64,000 bases of DNA, from positions 3,822,643-3,886,642 of the forward strand of contig NZ_CP133261.1 in NCBI RefSeq assembly GCF_030931715.1. Reading direction: 5' to 3'. The notes below the pieces were generated by a model, which saw nothing but the letters and a program-made list of their open reading frames with translations, did not search any database and was not told where the DNA came from. Source of the stretch: Tissierella sp. MB52-C2. GTDB lineage: Bacteria; Bacillota; Clostridia; Tissierellales; Tissierellaceae. Below are positions 2,502-15,845 of the stretch, in pieces. Position numbers and translations under genes: made by a program. Numbering within the stretch: the first letter of the stretch is position 1; each line of letters begins with the position of its first letter.

Positions 2502-3284
2502 ATGGATACTACTAAAAATATTGAAATATTAAGAGTAAAGGGCGATAGCATTACAAAGGAAGAAGATATTTTAATTATAGAACATCCCTTTACCATATTT
2601 CTAGATGATAAGGAAATAATAACTCTTTTATGTAGCCCAAAATCCCTTAAGGAGTTAACCATAGGGTTCCTTTATTCGGAGGGATTTATAGATAATATAT
2701 CTAATATAAAGGATATATATATAGACGAAGAAAAGGGAATAGCACATGTTTATTTATGGGAAAGAAAGTCTTTAGCTGAAAAGCTTCAAGGTAAAAGGAC
2801 TATAACATCTGGGTGTGGTAAAGGTACATTGTTTTATAATGTCCTAGATTCTTTTAAATCTGAGAAAATAAAAAAAACTTTAGATATAAAAATAGAAGAA
2901 ATTAAACATTTAGTTAAAGAATTTAATTATAAATCAGAGTTGTTTTTAAATACTGGAGGAGTACATAGTTGTGCTTTATGTAATAAATCTGGTATATTAA
3001 TATTCGAGGAAGATATTGGAAGACATAATGCACTTGATAAAATACTTGGTAGAGCATTTATGGATAATATGGATCTATCAGATAAACTTGTCTTAGTATC
3101 TGGAAGAATTTCCTCGGAAATGTTAATAAAAGTAGCAAAAAGAGGTATCCCAGTAATTGTTTCTCGGGCTGCTCCTACTAGCCTTTCTATTGAATTGGCT
3201 AGAGAGTTAAATATAATTATAGTAGGATTCGCAAGAGGAGAAAAAATGAACATTTATTCAAGTTTTCCGAGCTTTAACTTCTAA
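2502..3284 (+). CDS. fdhD: Formate dehydrogenase sulfurtransferase FdhD
   Basis: FdhD passes sulfur from a cysteine desulfurase to the Mo/W centre of formate dehydrogenase and is required for its activity. Family marks are TSGCGKGTLF near residue 104, the functional CxxC in GVHSCALC near residues 151-158, EDIGRHNALDKILGR, and the C-terminal SGRISSEM, SRAAPTSLSIELA and GFARGEKMNIYS blocks. The length of 260 residues is typical. The start is ATG with an AGGTGAT site 3 bases upstream, an arrangement repeated at many genes in this window. Confidence 0.93.
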   Translation: MDTTKNIEILRVKGDSITKEEDILIIEHPFTIFLDDKEIITLLCSPKSLKELTIGFLYSEGFIDNISNIKDIYIDEEKGIAHVYLWERKSLAEKLQGKRTITSGCGKGTLFYNVLDSFKSEKIKKTLDIKIEEIKHLVKEFNYKSELFLNTGGVHSCALCNKSGILIFEEDIGRHNALDKILGRAFMDNMDLSDKLVLVSGRISSEMLIKVAKRGIPVIVSRAAPTSLSIELARELNIIIVGFARGEKMNIYSSFPSFNF

Positions 3285-3310
3285 AGCAGATAATTGCATC
3301 TAGTTATGAA

Positions 3311-3403
3311 GTAAAAGCCTATGGGTAAAGAAAGAAATTTCTTTACCTCCCGTGTTTGGAAAGGAAGATGTATTAACAGCCTTTCTTTAGGCTGCTTTTT
3401 TTT
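3311..3403 (+). promoter_or_regulatory. Probable Moco/Tuco (molybdenum/tungsten cofactor) riboswitch ahead of tupA
   Basis: The 139-base leader between fdhD and tupA is highly structured. A 10-bp stem at 3324-3333/3338-3347 is capped by a GAAA tetraloop. It is followed by ACCTCCCGTG and TTGGAAAGG, which resemble conserved segments I associate with the Moco/Tuco class. AGCCTA at 3316-3321 can pair with TAGGCT at 3388-3393, closing the domain. That same 3' strand also forms the terminator stem at 3377-3394, so the two folds exclude each other. Location before a tungstate transporter fits the class. Assignment rests on motif and context, not on a covariance model. Confidence 0.6.
3377..3403 (+). 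terminator. Intrinsic terminator in the tupA leader (likely attenuator)
   Basis: CAGCCT (3377-3382) pairs with AGGCTG (3389-3394) around a TTCTTT loop, followed by CT8 (3395-3403). It ends 13 bases before the tupA ribosome binding site, as expected for transcriptional attenuation rather than simple termination of fdhD. Confidence 0.8.
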
Positions 3404-3432
3404 CCCAAGAATTTAAAAGGAGAGTGGTATTT

Positions 3433-4314
3433 ATGAAAAAATCTTTAGCATTATTACTTACCCTCTTGCTAATCATTACTACAGCAGCATGTGCACCAAA
3501 GACAGAAGTTCCACAGGAAACAGATGTAACACAAGAACCGTCAGAAACAATTGAAACAGATAGTCCAGTAGAACCTAATGGAAGGATTATCCTATCAACA
3601 ACTACATCTACTCAGGACTCAGGACTATTAGATTATTTACTTCCAATATTCACTGAGGAAACAGGTATAGAAGTAAATACTATTGCAGTAGGTACAGGTA
3701 AGGCATTACAAATGGGTAAAGATGGAGAAGCAGACGTACTTTTAGTTCATGCTAAGGCAGATGAATTAACATTTGTAGAGGAAGGACATGGAACAGAAAG
3801 ACGAGATGTAATGTATAATGACTTTATCTTAGTAGGGCCTAAATCAGGAGAAATTGAGAAAAACAAAGATATAGTGGGAGCACTGAAAAATATTAGTGAA
3901 AAGGAACTTGTATTTGTATCTAGAGGAGATGATTCTGGTACACATAAAAAAGAATTAGGTATCTGGAAAGTAGCTGGAATTGAACCAGCAGGAGAATGGT
4001 ATCTAGAAGCAGGAGCAGGTATGGGAGATGTACTTAAGATAGCTAATGAAAAGCAAGGCTATACTATAGCCGATAGAGCTACTTATTTAAGTATGAAAGA
4101 CAATCTTGAATTAGAGATTGTAGTAGAGGGAGATGAAAATCTACTTAACCAATATGGAGTAATACCAGTTAATCCAGAGAAAAATGAAAATATCAATGGT
4201 GAAGGTGCAGTAGAATTTATGAACTGGATAACTTCAGAAAGAGGACAAGCTTTAGTTAAAGAATATGGCATAGAAGAATATGGAGAATCTTTATTTATAC
4301 CAAATGCTGAGTAA
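3433..4314 (+). CDS. tupA: Tungstate ABC transporter substrate-binding lipoprotein TupA
   Basis: TupA captures tungstate outside the cell for TupBC. The N-terminus is a lipoprotein signal with a hydrophobic core and lipobox TAAC (Cys20), followed by a Glu/Thr/Pro-rich linker. The TupA signature TTTSTQDSG starts the mature domain near residue 54, and SRGDDSGTHKKE near residue 178 is also characteristic of the WtpA/TupA oxyanion group. ATG 3433 is preferred over GTG 3424, since AAAGGAGAG precedes it by 9 bases. The gene sits behind the putative riboswitch and 197 bases before tupB, separated by a repeat. Confidence 0.9.
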   Translation: MKKSLALLLTLLLIITTAACAPKTEVPQETDVTQEPSETIETDSPVEPNGRIILSTTTSTQDSGLLDYLLPIFTEETGIEVNTIAVGTGKALQMGKDGEADVLLVHAKADELTFVEEGHGTERRDVMYNDFILVGPKSGEIEKNKDIVGALKNISEKELVFVSRGDDSGTHKKELGIWKVAGIEPAGEWYLEAGAGMGDVLKIANEKQGYTIADRATYLSMKDNLELEIVVEGDENLLNQYGVIPVNPEKNENINGEGAVEFMNWITSERGQALVKEYGIEEYGESLFIPNAE

Positions 4315-4323
4315 TCATAATAA

Positions 4324-4490
4324 ATAACTAATGGTAAATGGTGGATAGTTTAAGACAGTGAATAGCCAATAGTGGATAGTTTTTAAAATATAGAAGATGA
4401 AATATCTTTTCGAATTTTTAATTATTAGTTATTCACTATTAGCTGTTACTATCTTTTAACTATTCACTATTAGTTTTTAGTTGATAATTG
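4324..4490. repeat. Imperfect palindromic repeat built from AATAGTGAATAG-like units
   Basis: The gap between tupA and tupB contains several copies of a short unit. On the left they read GGTGGATAG, AGTGAATAG and AGTGGATAG; on the right the reverse complement TATTCACTATTAG occurs twice (about 4430-4442 and 4460-4472). The arms could fold into a long imperfect hairpin. It looks like a degenerate dispersed palindromic element; no coding content is visible. Confidence 0.55.
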
Positions 4491-4511: not shown

Positions 4512-5201
4512 ATGGATTATATATTACAGGGTTTTAAAGAAGCAATAAAACTTTTAATTACGCTTGATAAAGAAATTTTTAAAATAGTATTTCTATCTAT
4601 TATTGTATCTACTTCTGCTACAATTCTTGCTTCTTTAATATCTATTCCCCTAGGAATATATTTTGGAATTAAAAAATTTAGAGGTAAGAAATTATTTTCT
4701 AGAATTACATATACAATGATGAGTATTCCCTCAGTAGTGGTTGGGCTTATAGTAGCTATAATTCTTTCGAGAAGAGGACCCTTTGGATATTTAGATCTAT
4801 TATATACTAAAAATGCCATGATAATAGCTCAAACTTTATTAGTAATGCCTTTAATTTTTGGCCTTAGTTATGGACTAGCTAAAAGTAGAGGAGGAGCAAT
4901 TGAAAAGGTAGCCTTTACATTAGGTGCTAACAAATGGGATACTATAATCTTAATTATTAGAGAACTAAAGATTGATATTATGGTAAATGTTGCTACAGCC
5001 TTTTCAAGGGCTATATCAGAAGTAGGAGCTGTAATGATAGTAGGTGGTAACATAAAGGGATACACAAGAGTTATAACAACTACTATTTCTATGATGAACT
5101 CTATGGGAGACTATCCTATGGCCATAGCCCTAGGAATTGTACTACTTCTTATATCATTTATAATACATAGTATAATATATTCCTATAGCCAGGAGGAATA
5201 A
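4512..5201 (+). CDS. tupB: Tungstate ABC transporter permease TupB
   Basis: This 229-residue membrane protein has about five hydrophobic segments. The cytoplasmic coupling loop contains the EAA-like motif AFTLGANKWDTIILI (from residue 137), followed by SRAISEVGAVMIVGGNIKGYTR, typical of tungstate and molybdate permeases. It forms the membrane channel partner of TupA and TupC. One base separates it from tupC, so the two are surely co-transcribed. Confidence 0.9.
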   Translation: MDYILQGFKEAIKLLITLDKEIFKIVFLSIIVSTSATILASLISIPLGIYFGIKKFRGKKLFSRITYTMMSIPSVVVGLIVAIILSRRGPFGYLDLLYTKNAMIIAQTLLVMPLIFGLSYGLAKSRGGAIEKVAFTLGANKWDTIILIIRELKIDIMVNVATAFSRAISEVGAVMIVGGNIKGYTRVITTTISMMNSMGDYPMAIALGIVLLLISFIIHSIIYSYSQEE

Positions 5202-5202
5202 T

Positions 5203-5814
5203 ATGGAGATAAAAATTAAAAATTTAAAGAAATATTATGGAGAAAGACAAATATTAAATATAGAAGAGATGTTTATAGAAAGAGGAAAGATTACAGGTAT
5301 CACAGGATCTAATGGATGTGGGAAGACAACTCTATTAGGTATAATATCTGGATTAGATAAGGAATATAGTGGCATTGTTACATATAATGGGATTAAACTT
5401 AATAAAGAAATTATAAATAATATGACTATAGTATTTCAAAAACCTTATTTATTTAGAAGAACAGTATATGAAAATATCGAATATCCATTAAAGGTTAGAG
5501 GTGGAGATAAAAAAGAAAATAAAAATCTAGTTATGGATATAATAAAACGTCTTGAAATAGAGGATTTAATAAATAAAAAGGCACATTTATTATCTGGAGG
5601 AGAGTCTCAAAAAGTGACACTGGCCAGAGCCTTGGTATTTAAACCTAAACTGCTTTTATTGGATGAGCCAACATCAAATATAGATCCAGCTGCTATTGAG
5701 GTTTTAGAAAGAGAAATTATAAGGTTCAATAAAGAAACGAATAGCACTATAGTTATAGTAACTCATAATATGGACCAAAGTAAAAGACTTGGTCAAAGAA
5801 TAATAGAGATGTAA
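5203..5814 (+). CDS. tupC: Tungstate ABC transporter ATPase TupC
   Basis: This is a compact ABC ATPase of 203 residues. It has Walker A GSNGCGKTT (about residue 36), Q-loop VFQKPYLF, signature LSGGESQKVTLARAL, Walker B LLLLDEPTSNID and H-loop VTHN. It has no C-terminal regulatory domain, as is usual for TupC. It energises tungstate uptake with TupA and TupB. Its stop codon lies inside a bidirectional terminator shared with modC. Confidence 0.9.
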   Translation: MEIKIKNLKKYYGERQILNIEEMFIERGKITGITGSNGCGKTTLLGIISGLDKEYSGIVTYNGIKLNKEIINNMTIVFQKPYLFRRTVYENIEYPLKVRGGDKKENKNLVMDIIKRLEIEDLINKKAHLLSGGESQKVTLARALVFKPKLLLLDEPTSNIDPAAIEVLEREIIRFNKETNSTIVIVTHNMDQSKRLGQRIIEM

Positions 5815-5849
5815 ATGAACCACTATAATTCAATTATAGTGGTTCATTT
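5813..5849. terminator. Bidirectional terminator between tupC and modC
   Basis: The 18-base arms (5813-5830 and 5832-5849) are perfectly complementary around one central base. The hairpin includes the tupC stop codon and the last base of the convergent modC gene. The arms end in ATTT/AAAT, giving a short U tract in each direction. Confidence 0.75.
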
Positions 5850-6904
5850 CAATATAGCAGCAATATATCTTCTTTATTAAGCCCTATGGAAAGAGAGTCT
5901 ATAGAGTTAAAATCATAATTATATAGTTCTTCTTTAGGAATATTCATATAAATATATGAACTAGGACCTTCCGTATTCTCCCTAGATAAAACTAAAGTAT
6001 AGAATAATAAGCTTTCTACTCTATCTATGATTTTAAAATTAAAAGTATTTATAGATTTAGAGTTTAAAGAAGATCTAATATTCTGTTCATGTATTGCAAC
6101 ATATTTAATATTATTTTTTACTAGCTCATTACATTCTAGCTGAATATCCCAATCAATAGCATGAATTTTATTTATATCAACTTTTTTTGCTCTTGAGATA
6201 TTTTTATATCCTGCTAGAATAGCAGAATTGAAGGTTTGTGGTCTATTGAAGAAATTCGTTTTTTCATTTACTTCTTCTATTCTTCCATTATTTAATACAG
6301 CAATTTTGTCACATATTTTATAGACTTCATCTTTATTATGAGATACATATAAAGTGCTGCCCTTATGTTCCTTCAAGATAGAAATAAGTTCACTTTCCAT
6401 CTGCCATTTTAAATGTTCATCTAAAGCTGAAAATGGTTCATCTAACATCAAAAGCTCAGGTCTATTGACTAGCATTCTTGCTAAGGCTACTCTTTGCTGT
6501 TGTCCCCCAGATAATTGATGGGGATAGTTCCTCTCCAAACCTTCTAAGGAAAAACTTTTTATCTTTTCTTTTATAATTTCTTTTTTACTAATCTCATTTT
6601 TAGGTACTCCTATGGCTATGTTTTCTTCCAAGGTCATATTGGGAAAGAGTGCATAGCTTTGAAATAACAATCCAACTTTTCTATTTTGAGGTAATAGATT
6701 AATTTTCTTTTTGCTATGAAAAAGGACTCTGTTATTTAACACTATTTCTCCTTCATCAGGTTTCTCAATTCCAGCAATACATTTTAATGTCATACTTTTT
6801 CCACAGCCAGATGCTCCTAAAAGAGCTAAAGTTTCTCCCTTTGCTTCAAATTCTACATCTAATGTAAAATTTCCTAATTTCTTTTTTATTTTAGCATAAA
6901 GAAT
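5849..6904 (-). CDS. modC: Molybdate ABC transporter ATPase ModC (apparent ATT start)
   Basis: ModC powers molybdate import with ModAB. From the first in-frame ATG (6793) the protein would lack its Walker A motif, but the frame is open upstream and encodes GASGCGKS directly before that Met. Reading back to ATT at 6904 gives an N-terminus aligned with normal ModC (LYAKIKKKLGNF after the start). An AGGGAGG site lies 8 bases before this ATT. Other motifs are Q-loop LLFQSYALFP, signature LSGGQQQRVALARML, Walker B LLMLDEPFSALD and VSHNKDE. A C-terminal TOBE-like region follows, giving 351 residues. The gene starts one base after modB stops. A sequencing error near the start is the alternative. Confidence 0.85.
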   Translation of the reverse strand: MLYAKIKKKLGNFTLDVEFEAKGETLALLGASGCGKSMTLKCIAGIEKPDEGEIVLNNRVLFHSKKKINLLPQNRKVGLLFQSYALFPNMTLEENIAIGVPKNEISKKEIIKEKIKSFSLEGLERNYPHQLSGGQQQRVALARMLVNRPELLMLDEPFSALDEHLKWQMESELISILKEHKGSTLYVSHNKDEVYKICDKIAVLNNGRIEEVNEKTNFFNRPQTFNSAILAGYKNISRAKKVDINKIHAIDWDIQLECNELVKNNIKYVAIHEQNIRSSLNSKSINTFNFKIIDRVESLLFYTLVLSRENTEGPSSYIYMNIPKEELYNYDFNSIDSLSIGLNKEDILLLY

Positions 6905-6905
6905 A

Positions 6906-7580
6906 TTAATTACCTCCCTTCCCAGCCTTGTTGATTTTCATAGTTTCAAACTTATTCATAATCAATATAGAAATGAAAGATATTGTAACCATTATAATAA
7001 CCCATTTGTAGGCTAAAGTTCTATTTCCAGCTTGAACAGCACTGTATACTGCCACTGCCATGGTTTGAGTTTTGCCTGGAATATTTCCTGCCAACATAAT
7101 GGTAGCACCAAATTCTCCTAAAGCTCTTGCAAAAGCTAAAACTGTTCCAGCAATAATACTAGAAAAGCTATTAGGTAACATAACTTTTAGAAATATTTCA
7201 TGTTCAGTTAAACCTAAAGTTCTAGCCACATAAATCATGTTTTTATCTAGCTGCTCAAAGGCACCCCTTGCAGTTCTATACATTAATGGAAAAGACACCA
7301 CTGTAGATGCTATGATAGTTGCAGAGCCAGAAAATACAATAGAAACATTGTAAAGTTCTAATAGTTTACCAATCAAGCTATTTTTGCCTAGAAAAACTAA
7401 AAGAAAAAAACCAACTACAGTAGGAGGTAATACTAATGGCAGTGTTAATACCCCATCAATTAGACCTTTAAATCTTTTTAATTTTGTAGTCAAATAGGCA
7501 ATATAAATACCTAAAATAAAAGTAATAATAGTAGATATAATTGCTGCTTTTAGTGATAGTAGGAGAGGAAAATAACTCAT
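6906..7580 (-). CDS. modB: Molybdate ABC transporter permease ModB
   Basis: The protein is 224 residues with about five membrane segments. LTLPLVLPPTVVGFFLL and the coupling loop VARTLGLTEHEIFLKVMLPNS, followed by ARALGEFGATIMLAGNIPGKTQTM, are hallmark ModB sequences. It forms the molybdate channel with ModC and ModA. It lies 9 bases after modA and one base before the ATT start of modC. Confidence 0.93.
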   Translation of the reverse strand: MSYFPLLLSLKAAIISTIITFILGIYIAYLTTKLKRFKGLIDGVLTLPLVLPPTVVGFFLLVFLGKNSLIGKLLELYNVSIVFSGSATIIASTVVSFPLMYRTARGAFEQLDKNMIYVARTLGLTEHEIFLKVMLPNSFSSIIAGTVLAFARALGEFGATIMLAGNIPGKTQTMAVAVYSAVQAGNRTLAYKWVIIMVTISFISILIMNKFETMKINKAGKGGN

Positions 7581-7589
7581 ATTATCTTC

Positions 7590-8369
7590 CTATTTCATAG
7601 AAAAACCATATTTTTCAAATAGTTTTATAGCTTCATCAGTTGATAAAAAATCTAAGAATTTCTTTCCACTATCTACATTTTCACTAGATTTAACTACTGC
7701 CACAGGGTAGGTAACTTCTTTATGGCTATCTTCTGGTGCCTCTGTAATTATTTTTATCTTGTCCGATGTAAATGCATCGGTTGCATAAACAATACCACAG
7801 TCAACTTCTCCACTTTCAACCCAAGTAAGTACAGTTCTAACATCATTACCTAATACTAACTTTGGATTTACATCATCTAGTATATTCATATTCGTAAATA
7901 TTTCTTCACTATATTGTCCCACAGGAACATTTCCAGGATCACCTATGGCAATTTTCTTAACACTATCTGCTGTTAAATCTTGAAAGGATTTTGTATCTAT
8001 AGTGCTATTAGAAGGTGTAATAAGTACAACTTTATTCACTAATAATGTTTTTCTCGTATCATTTACAATCAGATCTTTTTCTTCTAAGGCTGTCATTTGT
8101 TTTTCTGCTGCTGACATGAATATATCAACGGGAGCTCCTTCTTCTATTTGAGCCTGTAATGCTCCAGAACTACCAAAGGTAAAAATAAGAGTTGTTTCAG
8201 GTTCCACAGTTTTATACACTTCACTTAATTCTTCTAAAACATCTGTTAAACTTGCAGCGGCGGAAACTAATAGCTCTACCTTTTCCTTTGGTTTTTGACT
8301 ACATCCAACTAAAGATGACATAACTAATACACTTACTAATAATAAAACTACTACTTTTTTAAAACTCAT
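7590..8369 (-). CDS. modA: Molybdate ABC transporter binding lipoprotein ModA
   Basis: ModA binds molybdate outside the membrane. A lipoprotein signal ends at lipobox LVGC (Cys23). The mature domain begins with VSAAASLTDVLEEL, and TFGSSGALQAQIEEGAPVDIF near residue 65 and EVDCGIVYATDA near residue 187 are ModA ligand-site blocks. The start is an ATG behind AAGGAGGACG. It is the first gene of modABC, with a promoter-like segment and dyad 30-80 bases upstream. Confidence 0.92.
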   Translation of the reverse strand: MSFKKVVVLLLVSVLVMSSLVGCSQKPKEKVELLVSAAASLTDVLEELSEVYKTVEPETTLIFTFGSSGALQAQIEEGAPVDIFMSAAEKQMTALEEKDLIVNDTRKTLLVNKVVLITPSNSTIDTKSFQDLTADSVKKIAIGDPGNVPVGQYSEEIFTNMNILDDVNPKLVLGNDVRTVLTWVESGEVDCGIVYATDAFTSDKIKIITEAPEDSHKEVTYPVAVVKSSENVDSGKKFLDFLSTDEAIKLFEKYGFSMK

Positions 8370-8397
8370 TTTAACGTCCTCCTTTTATTTATATCTA

Positions 8398-8449
8398 AAA
8401 CAAGAACAATATCTTGTTTAGTTTTATAATTAGAAAGCTAAAATCTCAA
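8398..8449 (-). promoter_or_regulatory. Candidate modA promoter with overlapping operator dyad
   Basis: On the minus strand TTGAGA (8449-8444) and TATAAA (8428-8423) are 15 bases apart, a tight but possible sigma-A promoter. The predicted transcription start falls in a dyad AAACAAGA (8398-8405)/TCTTGTTT (8412-8419). A repressor bound there would block initiation, and the ModE-type gene just upstream is the obvious candidate. The dyad does not match the classical E. coli ModE box, so this is inference. Confidence 0.35.
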
Positions 8450-8466
8450 ATGAGAGTAACGAAGGT

Positions 8467-8499
8467 ATTTTTAAATCGTCCATAGGACGATTTAAAAAT
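8467..8499. terminator. Perfect 15-bp palindrome after modE, terminator-like
   Basis: ATTTTTAAATCGTCC (8467-8481) is exactly complementary to 8485-8499 around a 3-base loop, starting 9 bases past the modE stop. A stable hairpin would form on either strand. Strong U runs do not follow, so it may stabilise the 3' end or act as a protein site instead of being a classical terminator. Confidence 0.5.
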
Positions 8500-8507
8500 T
8501 AAATATC

Positions 8508-8861
8508 TTATTCTTCAAAATGTTTATTAAAAAGCTTTTCCGCTTCCGTATTTAGTTCATAAACAAAGGCCTGGTATCTATCCAATAAATCTGCACCTTC
8601 AGGAGAAAGCTCAGACTTCCCACCACCTTTGCCACCAACAACACTAACGAATAAAGGAAATCCCAAATCTTCTTCAGCTTTTTTAATAATTTTCCATCCC
8701 TTACTTGAAGATAATCCCATAATTTTATAGGCTTCAGATAATCTGCCTGTTTCCTTGACTAATTCCATAATCCTTGAAACTCCTGGACCGAAGTTAGGAT
8801 TATCATAAAATACTCTTGTTTTTATATGATACTTTAATATATGTTTAGAATTATTAGACAT
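8508..8861 (-). CDS. modE: ModE-type winged-helix transcriptional regulator (DNA-binding domain only)
   Basis: The 117-residue protein matches the N-terminal ModE/LysR-like helix-turn-helix domain: NFGPGVSRIMELVKETGRLS, YKIMGLSSSKGWKIIKKAEEDLGFPLF, then GGKGGGKSELSPEGADLLDRYQAF. It lacks the C-terminal molybdate-binding (TOBE/Mop) domains of E. coli ModE, as is common in clostridia. It is therefore unclear how it senses metal; it may be a simple repressor or activator of modABC, which lies directly downstream on the same strand. Confidence 0.85.
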   Translation of the reverse strand: MSNNSKHILKYHIKTRVFYDNPNFGPGVSRIMELVKETGRLSEAYKIMGLSSSKGWKIIKKAEEDLGFPLFVSVVGGKGGGKSELSPEGADLLDRYQAFVYELNTEAEKLFNKHFEE

Positions 8862-11660: not shown

Positions 11661-12887
11661 ATGGACTTTTTTAAAGTAGTGTCCGTAGATGAAGGAAAAA
11701 GATTACTTATAGAAAATTTTAAGGATTATGAATTACAAATAGAAGAAGTTCACATACTTGAATCTTTAGATAGAATATTAGCAGAAGAAATAAATTCCAA
11801 TATAGATGTACCAGAATTTAATCGATCCACTGTAGATGGATATGCTATAAAAGTATCTGATAGTCATGGAGCTACAGATTCTATCCCTAGTATACTAAAC
11901 ATATTGGGAGAAGTGAGAATGGGTGAAGAGGCAAAACTGCCTATTAAACCAGGACATACGTTATATGTTCCTACTGGAGGTATGATTCCAGAAGGGGCAG
12001 ATGGAGTAATAATGATTGAGAATACAGAAAAGATGGATGATAACACCTTATTAATATATAAACCTATATCTCAAGGAGAGAATATAATCTATAAAGGTGA
12101 TGATATTAGAATCGGTGAGGCCATATTAACAAAGGGAAGAAAAATTTCGCCAGAAGTTATGGGAGTATTGGCATCCTTGGGTATTTCCACAGTAAAAGTA
12201 TATAAGAAACCTAGATTTTATATAATATCAACAGGTGATGAAATAATAGATATAGACGAAGAACTTAGATTAGGAAAGGTAAGAGATATAAATGCTTATA
12301 CACTTTATGGATTGGTAGAAAACATTGGTGGAGAAACTGTGGGAAAAGCCATAATAAAGGATGATTATGATTTATTAAGAAATGAAGTAGAAAAGGCCCT
12401 TGATATTTCAGATATTGTATTGATTTCAGGAGGAAGTTCTGTAGGTACTAGAGATTATACTCATAAGGTAATAGATTCATTCAATGGAAGAGGTGTATTT
12501 GTTCATGGTGTATCCATAAGACCTGGGAAACCTACTATAATGGGTGAAGGAAAGGGTAAATTAATATTTGGACTTCCAGGGCACCCAGTTTCTTCAATCG
12601 TTATATTTAAAACCTTTTTAGAAACATTTATAAAGGACAAATTAGGAGTAGATAATCTTAAACCAAGGATAAATGCTATTATGGATTTTAATTTTCCATC
12701 ATCACCAGGAAAAGTAACATATCAGATGGTAAAGGTAAATGAAAAAGAGGGGAAATTTTACGCTATACCTACCTTTGGTAAATCAGGAATGATAAGCTTA
12801 TTATCAAATTCTCAAGGTTATATAGTAATAGATGCCCATGAGGAAGGGATTTATAAAGGTGAGGAAAGGGAAGTCTACTTATTATAA
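11661..12887 (+). CDS. moeA: Molybdopterin molybdenumtransferase MoeA
   Basis: MoeA inserts molybdate (or tungstate) into adenylylated molybdopterin. Key motifs are VPEFNRSTVDGYAI near residue 50, VPTGGMIPEGADGVIMIENTE near residue 100, FYIISTGDEI at the start of the pterin-binding domain, ISGGSSVGTRDYT, and RPGKPTIMGEG followed by GLPGHPVSSIVIF. The length of 408 residues is normal. ATG 11661 follows a GGAAAGGTGG site; an in-frame GTG (11649) lies inside that site. It opens the cofactor operon. Confidence 0.92.
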   Translation: MDFFKVVSVDEGKRLLIENFKDYELQIEEVHILESLDRILAEEINSNIDVPEFNRSTVDGYAIKVSDSHGATDSIPSILNILGEVRMGEEAKLPIKPGHTLYVPTGGMIPEGADGVIMIENTEKMDDNTLLIYKPISQGENIIYKGDDIRIGEAILTKGRKISPEVMGVLASLGISTVKVYKKPRFYIISTGDEIIDIDEELRLGKVRDINAYTLYGLVENIGGETVGKAIIKDDYDLLRNEVEKALDISDIVLISGGSSVGTRDYTHKVIDSFNGRGVFVHGVSIRPGKPTIMGEGKGKLIFGLPGHPVSSIVIFKTFLETFIKDKLGVDNLKPRINAIMDFNFPSSPGKVTYQMVKVNEKEGKFYAIPTFGKSGMISLLSNSQGYIVIDAHEEGIYKGEEREVYLL

Positions 12888-12989
12888 TGAATAGTTCAAA
12901 ATATACTATAGCTTCGATAATGCTTTGAAATTACTTAGACTTATTCGAAACTTGCTCTAACTATCAGTTAAATAAATGGAGTTGATAAA

Positions 12990-14873
12990 ATGGATAGAAA
13001 TACTTATATAGATAATATTGATATTGAATTGGCTAAGAAAATGTATTATGAGAAATTAAATATAGATTTAGATTGGGAAGAGGTGAAGGTAACAGATTCT
13101 TTAGATAGAGTCTCCTATGAAGCAATCATGGCAAAGGTATCTTCTCCCAACTATAATGCAGCTGCCATGGATGGAATTGCAGTAAGATCCTCTGATACAC
13201 TAGGAGCTACAGAGATTAATCCTATGGTTCTAGAAGAAAACAAGGATTTTATATATATAAACACTGGAAATCCTATGAGTGATCTCTATGATTCAGTAAT
13301 TATGATAGAAGATGTCATAGTTCTAGAAGAAGGTAAAATTCAAATATTAAAATCTGCTCATCCTTGGCAACATATAAGACAAATTGGTGAAGATATAGTG
13401 GCTACAGAAATGATAATACCATCAAGACACAAAATAAGACCTATAGACATAGGTGCTTTAATATCCGGTGGAATAGAAAAACTTAAAGTTTATAAAAAAC
13501 CTAGAGTCGGAATACTTCCCACAGGAAGCGAAATAATTGAAGAACTTAAAGATTTAGAAGATGGCAAAATAATGGATTCTAACTCTAGAGTTTTCGAAGG
13601 AGAAATAATTAAATATGGAGGAATACCAAATAGATATAATCCCCATAAAGATAATTATGAGCTATTAAAAAATGCAATATTAAAGGGAGTTAAAGAAAAT
13701 GATATTCTCCTAATAAATGCAGGTTCTTCTGCAGGAACTAAAGACTATACAGTAAAACTTATAAGGGAATTGGGAGAAGTTATAGTCCATGGGGTGGCCA
13801 TGAAACCAGGTAAACCAACTATTCTAGGCATTATAGATAATAAGCCTGTTATAGGAATACCTGGATACCCTGTCTCTGCATATTTAGTATTTGATACTTT
13901 TGTGAAACCATTAATTAAGAGATATATGGGTATTAGAGAAGTAGAAGAGGATTTAATAGAAGCTACTATTTCCAAGAGGATAGTATCATCCCTGAAAAGC
14001 AAAGATTTAGTAAGGGTAAATCTAGGTTATGTAAATGATAGGTTAGTGGCTACACCTCTATCTAGTGGGGCAGGGGTTACTATGAGCTTAGTAAAGGCGG
14101 ATGGAATAGCTATTATTCCAAGAAATATAGAAGGGGTAGAAGCAGGAGATACAGTAGATGTAGAATTACTAAAACCACTATCAATGATAAGAAATACTAT
14201 AGTATCTATAGGAAGTCACGATTTAATTATGGATATATTAAGTGATATGGTAAAATTAACTTCAGGACACGTAGGTAGTATGGGTGGTATAATGTCTATG
14301 AGAAGAGGGGAATGTCATATTGCACCAATCCACTTATTAGATGAAGAAACTGGAGAATATAATATATCCTATGTGAAGAAGTATTTTCCAAATACAAAAA
14401 TGGCAATTATAAAGGGAGTAAAAAGGCAACAAGGCTTCATTGTAGAAAAGGGAAATCCAAAGAATATAAAGAATTTCAATGACTTAACTAGAGAAGATGT
14501 GACCTATATAAATAGGCAAAGAGGAGCAGGAACTAGGATTTTACTTGACTATCATTTGAAAGTTGATAATATAGACTCCGAAAAAATAAAAGGATATAGT
14601 AGAGAAATGACTACACATATGGCTGTAGCTACAGGTGTAAAAACTGGTACTGCAACTACAGGTCTAGGAATATATTCAGCGGCTAAGGCACTTGATTTAG
14701 ATTTTGTAGATATTACATTTGAGGACTATGATTTCTTAGTCCCCTATAATATGTTAGAACAACCAATGATGCAGGAGTTTATTGAGGTCATAAAGTCAAA
14801 GAAATTCCAAGATAGAGTAAGGATATTGGGAGGATATGATTTTATAAATACAGGGGAAATTATAGAAATCTAA
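12990..14873 (+). CDS. moeA2: MoeA fused to a periplasmic-binding-like domain (second molybdenumtransferase)
   Basis: Residues 1 to about 405 are a full MoeA (NYNAAAMDGIAVRSSDTLG, VGILPTGSEI, NAGSSAGTKDYT, MKPGKPTILGI, GIPGYPVSAYLVFD). The remaining 220 residues form a PBP-like domain as in LysR or ModA-type ligand domains (RNTIVSIGSHDLIMDIL, NRQRGAGTRILLDYHL, TATTGLGIYSAAKALDLDF). This fusion is a known architecture in clostridia and archaea. Two MoeA proteins often occur in organisms using both Mo and W, so metal preference is a plausible but unproven split; the extra domain might bind the oxyanion. It is followed 15 bases later by moaA. Confidence 0.9.
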   Translation: MDRNTYIDNIDIELAKKMYYEKLNIDLDWEEVKVTDSLDRVSYEAIMAKVSSPNYNAAAMDGIAVRSSDTLGATEINPMVLEENKDFIYINTGNPMSDLYDSVIMIEDVIVLEEGKIQILKSAHPWQHIRQIGEDIVATEMIIPSRHKIRPIDIGALISGGIEKLKVYKKPRVGILPTGSEIIEELKDLEDGKIMDSNSRVFEGEIIKYGGIPNRYNPHKDNYELLKNAILKGVKENDILLINAGSSAGTKDYTVKLIRELGEVIVHGVAMKPGKPTILGIIDNKPVIGIPGYPVSAYLVFDTFVKPLIKRYMGIREVEEDLIEATISKRIVSSLKSKDLVRVNLGYVNDRLVATPLSSGAGVTMSLVKADGIAIIPRNIEGVEAGDTVDVELLKPLSMIRNTIVSIGSHDLIMDILSDMVKLTSGHVGSMGGIMSMRRGECHIAPIHLLDEETGEYNISYVKKYFPNTKMAIIKGVKRQQGFIVEKGNPKNIKNFNDLTREDVTYINRQRGAGTRILLDYHLKVDNIDSEKIKGYSREMTTHMAVATGVKTGTATTGLGIYSAAKALDLDFVDITFEDYDFLVPYNMLEQPMMQEFIEVIKSKKFQDRVRILGGYDFINTGEIIEI

Positions 14874-14888
14874 AGAAAAGGTGATTAT

Positions 14889-15845
14889 ATGAAAGACTCT
14901 TTTGGAAGAGAAATAAATTATCTTAGAATTTCATTAACTGATAGATGTAATCTAAGGTGTAAATATTGTATGCCTGAAGATGGTGTTTCGAAATTTCCCC
15001 ACAATGAAATATTAACTCTAGAAGAATTGTATGAAATAATAAAGGTATTTGTAGAACTGGGTATAAATAAAATAAGGTTTACAGGGGGAGAACCCCTTGC
15101 GAGAAAGGGAATAGTAGAGCTAATAGCGAAAGTATCAAAATTGGATAAGGTTAAAGATTTGGCTATGACTACTAATGGTATTCTTCTAAAAGAATACGCC
15201 ATGGATTTAAAGAAGGCAGGATTAAATAGAGTTAATATTAGCTTGGACACATTAGATGAAGAAAAGTATAGAACCATAACTAGAGGTGGCAGACTTAATA
15301 AAGTTTTAGAAGGAATAGAAGAAGCTAAAAAGGTAGGTTTAACTCCCATAAAGATAAATACTGTTTTAATAGGTGGATTTAACGATGATGAAATAGAAGC
15401 CTTAGTAAATTTAACAGAGAAAGATAATATAGATGTAAGGTTTATCGAATTAATGCCCATAGGAGAAGCTGCAAACTGGGCCAAAGAAAAGTTTATTTCT
15501 AATAATAAGGTTTTAGAAAAGCTAGATAGCCTTATAGCAGTTCCAAGGGAAGATGTATCATCTCCAGCCGTTTATTATAAGCTTCCAAATGGGAGGGGAA
15601 AGGTTGGGATAATCAATCCAATATCCTGTAAGTTTTGTGAAAACTGTAATAGGGTTAGATTAACTTCACAGGGACGACTAAAGTTATGTCTTCATTCAAA
15701 CAATGAAATAGATATAAAAGAGGCTTTAAATAAAGGACAAGACCTAAAAAAACTAATATTAGAATCCATAGAAAAAAAAGAAGAATCTCATCATTTAGAA
15801 GAAGGAAAATATATAAAAAGAAATATGAACCAAATAGGAGGTTAA
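14889..15845 (+). CDS. moaA: GTP 3',8-cyclase MoaA (radical SAM)
   Basis: MoaA performs the first step of molybdopterin synthesis from GTP, together with MoaC. The radical-SAM cluster motif CNLRCKYC is at residues 20-27, followed by [12 protein letters not shown]. The second [4Fe-4S] site is supplied by [11 protein letters not shown] and a later Cys in LKLCLH. The protein has 318 residues, slightly short of the family average. AGGTGAT lies 3 bases before ATG. Only 2 bases separate it from moaC. Confidence 0.93.

Follow-up and report, generated by a model that had tools for sequence, protein, structure and literature searches.

The window, by which we mean the entire 64,000 nt stretch of Tissierella sp. 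MB52-C2 that was analysed (NZ_CP133261.1; coordinates are window positions unless another locus is named), opens part-way through a predicted operon for formate dehydrogenase and its cofactor. This operon starts approximately 8 kb upstream of the switch described below, past a promoter-like site (TTGACA-17-TAGAAT), and its layout as read from the sequence is nuoE-nuoF-fdhF(Sec)-mogA-mobA-fdhD, followed by the switch and then tupABC, with a gene for a 2Fe-2S-type protein between the nuoF-like gene and fdhF, and a ferritin-like gene between fdhF and mogA. The formate dehydrogenase alpha subunit ORF, which is cut by the window start (window -1896 to 812; 12747-15455 of locus L218), contains one in-frame UGA, within VDHCARL-U-HSSTVAGL, that evidently encodes selenocysteine. 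The formate dehydrogenase accessory sulfurtransferase gene fdhD occupies 2502-3284 (+; TIGR00129, 222.5 bits; PF02634, 274 bits). Beyond the switch, tupA, encoding a tungstate-binding lipoprotein, spans 3433-4314 (+; PF12849), with its ATG at 3433 in an ORF open from a GTG at 3424; its match to TupA (NF041772, 245 bits) is below the 400-bit cut-off of that family, which is still the best and only one matched. The permease gene tupB (4512-5201, +) matches NF038017 at 209 bits, and TupB (NF041773) at 169 bits, below the latter's cut-off, while the ATPase gene tupC (5203-5814, +) matches TupC (NF041774) at 144 bits, also below cut-off, in an order kept in relatives. Indeed, relatives repeat the order mog-mobA-fdhD-switch-tupABC-moeA-moeA-moaA. 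Two further non-coding features were observed: imperfect repeats of the TATTCACTATTAG type in the tupA-tupB gap (4320-4480), of which the genome contains several partial copies at other places, and a long leader ahead of the nuoE-like gene (approximately 9510-9697 of L218), which has a promoter-like site as well as a GACAGCA...TGCTGTC hairpin with a T-rich stretch behind it, and is possibly another attenuator.

The sole Rfam match in the whole window, found with cmscan, is to RF01055, the molybdenum/tungsten riboswitch aptamer or Moco RNA motif, at 3253-3382 (+). The match spans the complete model (1-135) with 81.3 bits (E 3.8e-18), relative to a gathering threshold of 36, and is the only RNA of this type in the genome. 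An earlier note had proposed a Moco/Tuco riboswitch here, to be checked by such a covariance-model search, and the strength of the match bears this out: judged by its alignment, the window RNA belongs to this known riboswitch class. Both the alignment and the minimum free energy (MFE) structure contain P1, in which GUUUUCC (3262-3268) pairs with 3363-3369; P2, in which 3271-3281 pairs with 3308-3318 around a conserved internal loop; the P4 hairpin (3323-3348); and the conserved 3' core, in which GGAAAGG adjoins the P1 3' strand (3358-3369). P4 corresponds to the GAAA-capped stem previously noted, although it comprises 11 pairs (3323-3333/3338-3348, one of them G-U, with the loop at 3334-3337) rather than 10 bp, and the CCTCCCG (3346-3352) and GGAAAGG (3358-3364) segments are likewise both present. 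However, the layout described as complete at 3311-3403 omitted the 5' half of the aptamer, comprising the 5' strands of P1 and P2 and the P2 internal loop; the true start is at 3253, 58 bases further 5', within fdhD. The conserved CCUCCCG...UUUGGAAAGGA is intact, and the P3 columns are deleted in the alignment, making this a P3-less RNA with tungsten genes (tupABC) directly downstream, as in the proposed Tuco subtype. Its linked molybdenum/tungsten cofactor genes are tupABC, fdhD, mobA, mogA and fdhF. The leader has a folding z-score of -4.0, with none of 200 shuffles being equally stable. The CUAA of the P2 internal loop resembles a GAAA-tetraloop receptor (compare CCUAAG/UAUGG receptors and PMC2408646). 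Adjacent to tupABC, a modABC locus with a ModE-like regulator lies on the (-) strand (5849-8861), where there is no Moco RNA; hence the uptake of tungstate and molybdate appears to be differently controlled at one locus.

The first third of the switch doubles as the coding end of fdhD. The last approximately 10 codons lie inside the aptamer, such that the 5' strands of P1 and P2 encode the C-terminal residues ...S-S-F-P-S-F-N-F (S-F-N-F being encoded by P2), and the stop codon, UAA (3282-3284), falls within the CUAA that is conserved in the P2 internal loop. This overlap recurs in relatives. In a survey of 60 relatives and the genome itself, 20 of 61 aptamers in the order, distributed across six families, overlap fdhD at the same base (model start +29). 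Only one of 89 aptamers from elsewhere in the class overlaps an ORF, and this is again fdhD (L185, in G463). With 11 more named genomes, including Clostridium ultunense, Thermohalobacter berrensis, Tepidibacter formicigenes and Peptoclostridium litorale, the overlap is found at 32 distinct loci, in as many genomes, and almost invariably at one and the same base; in P. litorale, the stop is a TAG 9 nt earlier. All convincing ORFs overlapping an aptamer are fdhD, the few others listed being short and out of frame, and the aptamers at overlap loci were re-confirmed with Rfam in a sample (L074, L080, L085, L089, L091, L097 and L221). An exact-pattern scan of 391 genomes of the class matched the window alone, the covariance-model scan being more productive. 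In a separate pattern scan of named genomes, four matches, in Flavobacteriaceae, Fibrobacter, Endozoicomonas and Saprospiraceae, were discarded as unrelated chance occurrences, with pathway genes absent nearby. A search of open-licence papers found no account of any aptamer that is joined to the fdhD terminus, and the conserved overlap appears to be undescribed.

Variants of this arrangement were also observed. An approximate script classified 131 of 138 aptamers as lacking P3, four as having it and three as unreadable; a further two, L019 (G022) and L048 (G016), were judged by eye to bear P3 among the mostly P3-less aptamers of the order. The fdhD-overlapping aptamer precedes moeA, not tup, at L185/L221 (G463) and L065/L082 (G025). 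At two loci that have lost fdhD, L058 (G020) and L078, the aptamer and tupA remain, together with a short remnant of the tail that is still in frame. At L078, this remnant accompanies a tandem of two P3-less Moco RNAs, both complete, upstream of tupA (1260-1379 and 1487-1606 of that locus), with a terminator after each and a promoter-like site between them. In G020, the aptamer (4696-4810 of L220) retains a brief fossil of the FdhD tail, fdhD having been lost from the locus, and a different fdhD, with another tail, is encoded elsewhere (L122).

The shared sequence is constrained at the level of RNA as well as protein. Among 27 overlapping fdhD genes of full length, CCG encodes the tail proline in 26 of 26 cases, compared with eight of the 139 other prolines in these genes, and the tail phenylalanine and asparagine are TTT and AAT without exception. 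Synonymous entropy is zero at the tail phenylalanine and proline, against an upstream mean of 1.3 bits. FdhD orthologues lacking the aptamer instead have NF(D/P)... or different C-termini, using other codons (CCT-ACT in G039, for example). The P1 5' strand is in paired cells in 98% of cases over the 32 overlap loci, and the coding 5' strand of P2 covaries with its 3' strand beyond the stop codon, with 9.5 of 11 pairs formed compared with 7.9 (maximum 8.4) over 2000 reassignments among these loci; the encoded residues vary between loci while the pairing persists. This combination of codon bias and P2 covariation with changing residues indicates that the RNA dictates the FdhD tail, and that codon choice within the overlap is RNA-driven.

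Downstream of the aptamer, and ahead of tupA as the earlier note had claimed, is an intrinsic terminator, consisting of a CAGCCT/AGGCTG hairpin (3377-3394, present in the MFE structure together with P1) and a U8 tract (3396-3403), with CTTTTTTTT following the hairpin. Of 37 copies that are linked to tup or overlap fdhD, 34 yielded a terminator, and imperfect ones were recognised by eye at L009 and L027. This structural conservation in relatives, the lack of which had been named as grounds for doubt, is complemented by the joint absence of elements from three genomes of the same genus, in which a full TupA orthologue, FdhD and the aptamer were all not found. A fold exclusive of the terminator also exists, as the earlier note held, but its conserved competitor differs from that proposed. 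The 5' arm and loop of the terminator, UCCUUUCC or shifted versions of it, have their complement in the aptamer strand GGAAAGGA(AG); in the window, AAAGGAAG (3360-3367), across GGAAAGG and the P1 3' strand, faces CUUUCUUU (3381-3388). This complementarity has a median rank of 0.003 (0.3%) among 321 control terminators drawn from the same fetched loci, compared with 0.44 (44%) for the AGCCTA/TAGGCT type, and CCTTTC occurs in 21 of 34 switch terminators, compared with 0.3% of controls. The GGAAAGGA strand is near-invariant, hence the antiterminator is supported by complementarity on the side of one partner, rather than two-sided covariation, except in shifted versions such as GAUAG/CUAUC at L021 and L024. 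The outer helix emphasised previously, of AGCCUA (3316-3321) with UAGGCU (3388-3393), does exist, but is not part of the aptamer; it is an antiterminator element, competing with the terminator and with P1 and P2. Being kept only in the nearest relatives, it was rejected as a general switch helix. Nevertheless, both competing helices nest within one antiterminator in the window, so that AGCCUA/UAGGCU is real but auxiliary.

Thermodynamic folding, which leaves out ligand, pseudoknots and kinetics, is consistent with these alternatives. In transcripts ending before the 3' arm of the terminator, the mean antiterminator probability is 0.92, compared with 0.20 when control terminators are swapped in. 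For the unliganded window transcript to 3390, the antiterminator fold is favoured over the P1 fold by 2.0 kcal/mol (-34.7 vs -32.7 kcal/mol), whereas at full length the MFE structure combines P1 and the terminator (-42.3 vs about -37 kcal/mol). Hence sequence and folding together present an intrinsic terminator and a mutually exclusive antiterminator that uses the P1 strand, as expected for a transcription-terminating OFF switch.

We therefore favour, with a probability of roughly 0.8, the interpretation that this is a P3-less Moco/Tuco-class transcriptional OFF riboswitch embedded in an operon for formate dehydrogenase and the tungsten cofactor, and of an arrangement usually reached by read-through. 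Bound cofactor would hold P1 (3262-3268/3363-3369), and with the P1 3' strand thus occupied, the terminator at 3377-3394 would form and transcription would end before tupA. When cofactor is lacking, the strand GGAAAGGAAG would capture the 5' arm and loop of the terminator (CCUUUCUUU), assisted in this genome by AGCCUA/UAGGCU, so that termination is blocked and the tungstate uptake system is made. With read-through entry from the fdh operon, plentiful cofactor would cut expression of the distal genes alone, those for uptake and cofactor synthesis.

The route by which transcription reaches the switch is the part of this interpretation for which the spread of promoters is informative. Sigma-70-like sites were scored in the 100 nt upstream of each aptamer, with 10 points as the mark, which was reached by 61% of 92 free-standing aptamers, compared with 6% of shuffles. 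By contrast, it was reached by 6% of 32 overlapping aptamers, compared with 3% of shuffles, and this lack of enrichment means overlapping switches are probably entered from the fdh operon, attenuating mid-operon behind a translated gene. Promoter-like sites are present at L058 and L078, the loci lacking fdhD. Two overlap loci are exceptions with a 10-point site, and the window is among them, having a possible internal promoter in fdhD (TTGAAT-16-TATAAT, 3190-3217, +, a 10/12 match), so that a private promoter is conceivable here. The same switch could then be driven from within fdhD, with transcripts starting at approximately 3224, the aptamer always being an untranslated leader and the overlap mere compactness, in keeping with the promoters preceding free-standing aptamers. 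We regard this as unlikely, as 10/12-type matches are no commoner than expected in the region, the synonymous sites at 3190-3217 are not conserved, and the two overlapping loci reaching the mark equal the shuffles within error and share no common position; correspondingly, no conserved promoter inside fdhD was found among the 32 overlapping loci scored. Somewhat more doubtful still is that the fusion to the fdhD stop codon functions as a two-input device, in which the ribosome finishing FdhD at 3282-3284 covers the 5' strands of P1 and P2, overriding the cofactor signal such that translated transcripts have tup on at any cofactor level, and only ribosome-free ones are sensitive. When 3264-3297 is held unpaired at full length, the antiterminator fold (-29.9 kcal/mol) is indeed preferred to the terminator fold (-26.1 kcal/mol), and both the fixed position of the FdhD stop and the missing promoters at overlaps are compatible with such gating. 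Yet aptamer conservation alone also explains the fixed stop, which is 9 nt earlier in P. litorale, and L058 and L078 retain the switch without fdhD. Among relatives with near terminators, the same treatment lowers the mean terminator probability from 0.89 to 0.51, but several stay at approximately 1.0; hence a universal ribosome override was set aside as too variable in its folding effect, and is kept as a conjecture.

Read-through attenuation by a cofactor-sensing switch also has to be weighed against alternatives concerning the ligand. A conserved leader that does not sense cofactor, such as a simple attenuator or processing signal, would be compatible with the window RNA's ligand having been deduced indirectly, but is highly improbable given that the aptamer match is full-length and includes every conserved loop, and that the aptamer stays with tup or moeA and is missing from the same-genus genomes in which tupA is missing. 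Which cofactor is sensed is a closer question. The class, P3-less type, terminators and tup linkage all support the earlier suggestion that uptake is tied to cofactor level, and we infer that the window RNA senses Tuco rather than Moco, as P3-less RNAs correlate with tungsten genes and most overlapping copies precede tup. The specificity of P3-less RNAs for Tuco is nevertheless itself a proposal, and deleting P3 from the Escherichia coli RNA broke it rather than switching its specificity (PMC2408646). Moreover, the same overlap precedes moeA, which serves both cofactors, in G025 and G463, and ModABC is encoded next door in the window. Hence a response to Moco, or to either cofactor, is a substantial, if less probable, alternative.

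This work confirms a rarely studied riboswitch subtype and provides it with a concrete, conserved antiterminator. It also adds an unusual architecture, in which the last codons and stop of the preceding gene have long housed a metabolite aptamer that has no promoter of its own. The overlap makes two ideas testable: the sensing of Tuco by P3-less Moco RNAs, and the gating of a riboswitch by translation of the upstream gene. Were the latter true, tungstate would be taken up in step with continuing production of the machinery that matures the tungsten enzyme, as FdhD matures the cofactor-requiring formate dehydrogenase.

The Moco RNA motif was described by Regulski et al. in 2008, with cofactor-dependent control shown for the copy preceding E. 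coli moaA, and terminator-type expression platforms noted (PMC2408646). The window RNA resembles this class (RF01055) in its full covariance match, conserved CCUCCC...UUUGGAAAGG, P1, P2 and P4, GAAA loop, and context of cofactor synthesis and transport, but differs in that the 5' part of its aptamer lies inside fdhD, mid-operon, whereas the text of PMC2408646 does not mention fdhD. The P3-less copies were proposed to be tungsten-cofactor sensors because they accompany tup or wtp genes (PMC2408646), and the window RNA shares with this Tuco subtype the absence of the P3 columns and the adjoining tupA, that paper's marker of tungsten use. The ligand is deduced in both cases, although a specific antiterminator is identified in the present case and is conserved. 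The triple P3-less arrangement of Syntrophomonas wolfei (PMC2408646) also has terminator-type platforms, and tandem copies similarly occur upstream of tupA at L078, whereas the window copy is single. Reading frames inside aptamers are likewise known from the Mycobacterium tuberculosis B12 riboswitches with uORFs (PMC11260477), which share with the window RNA a translated reading frame within the aptamer. Yet those are short uORFs associated with translational control, whereas the window aptamer takes in the terminal part of a complete enzyme gene lying upstream, and is predicted to act through transcription termination.
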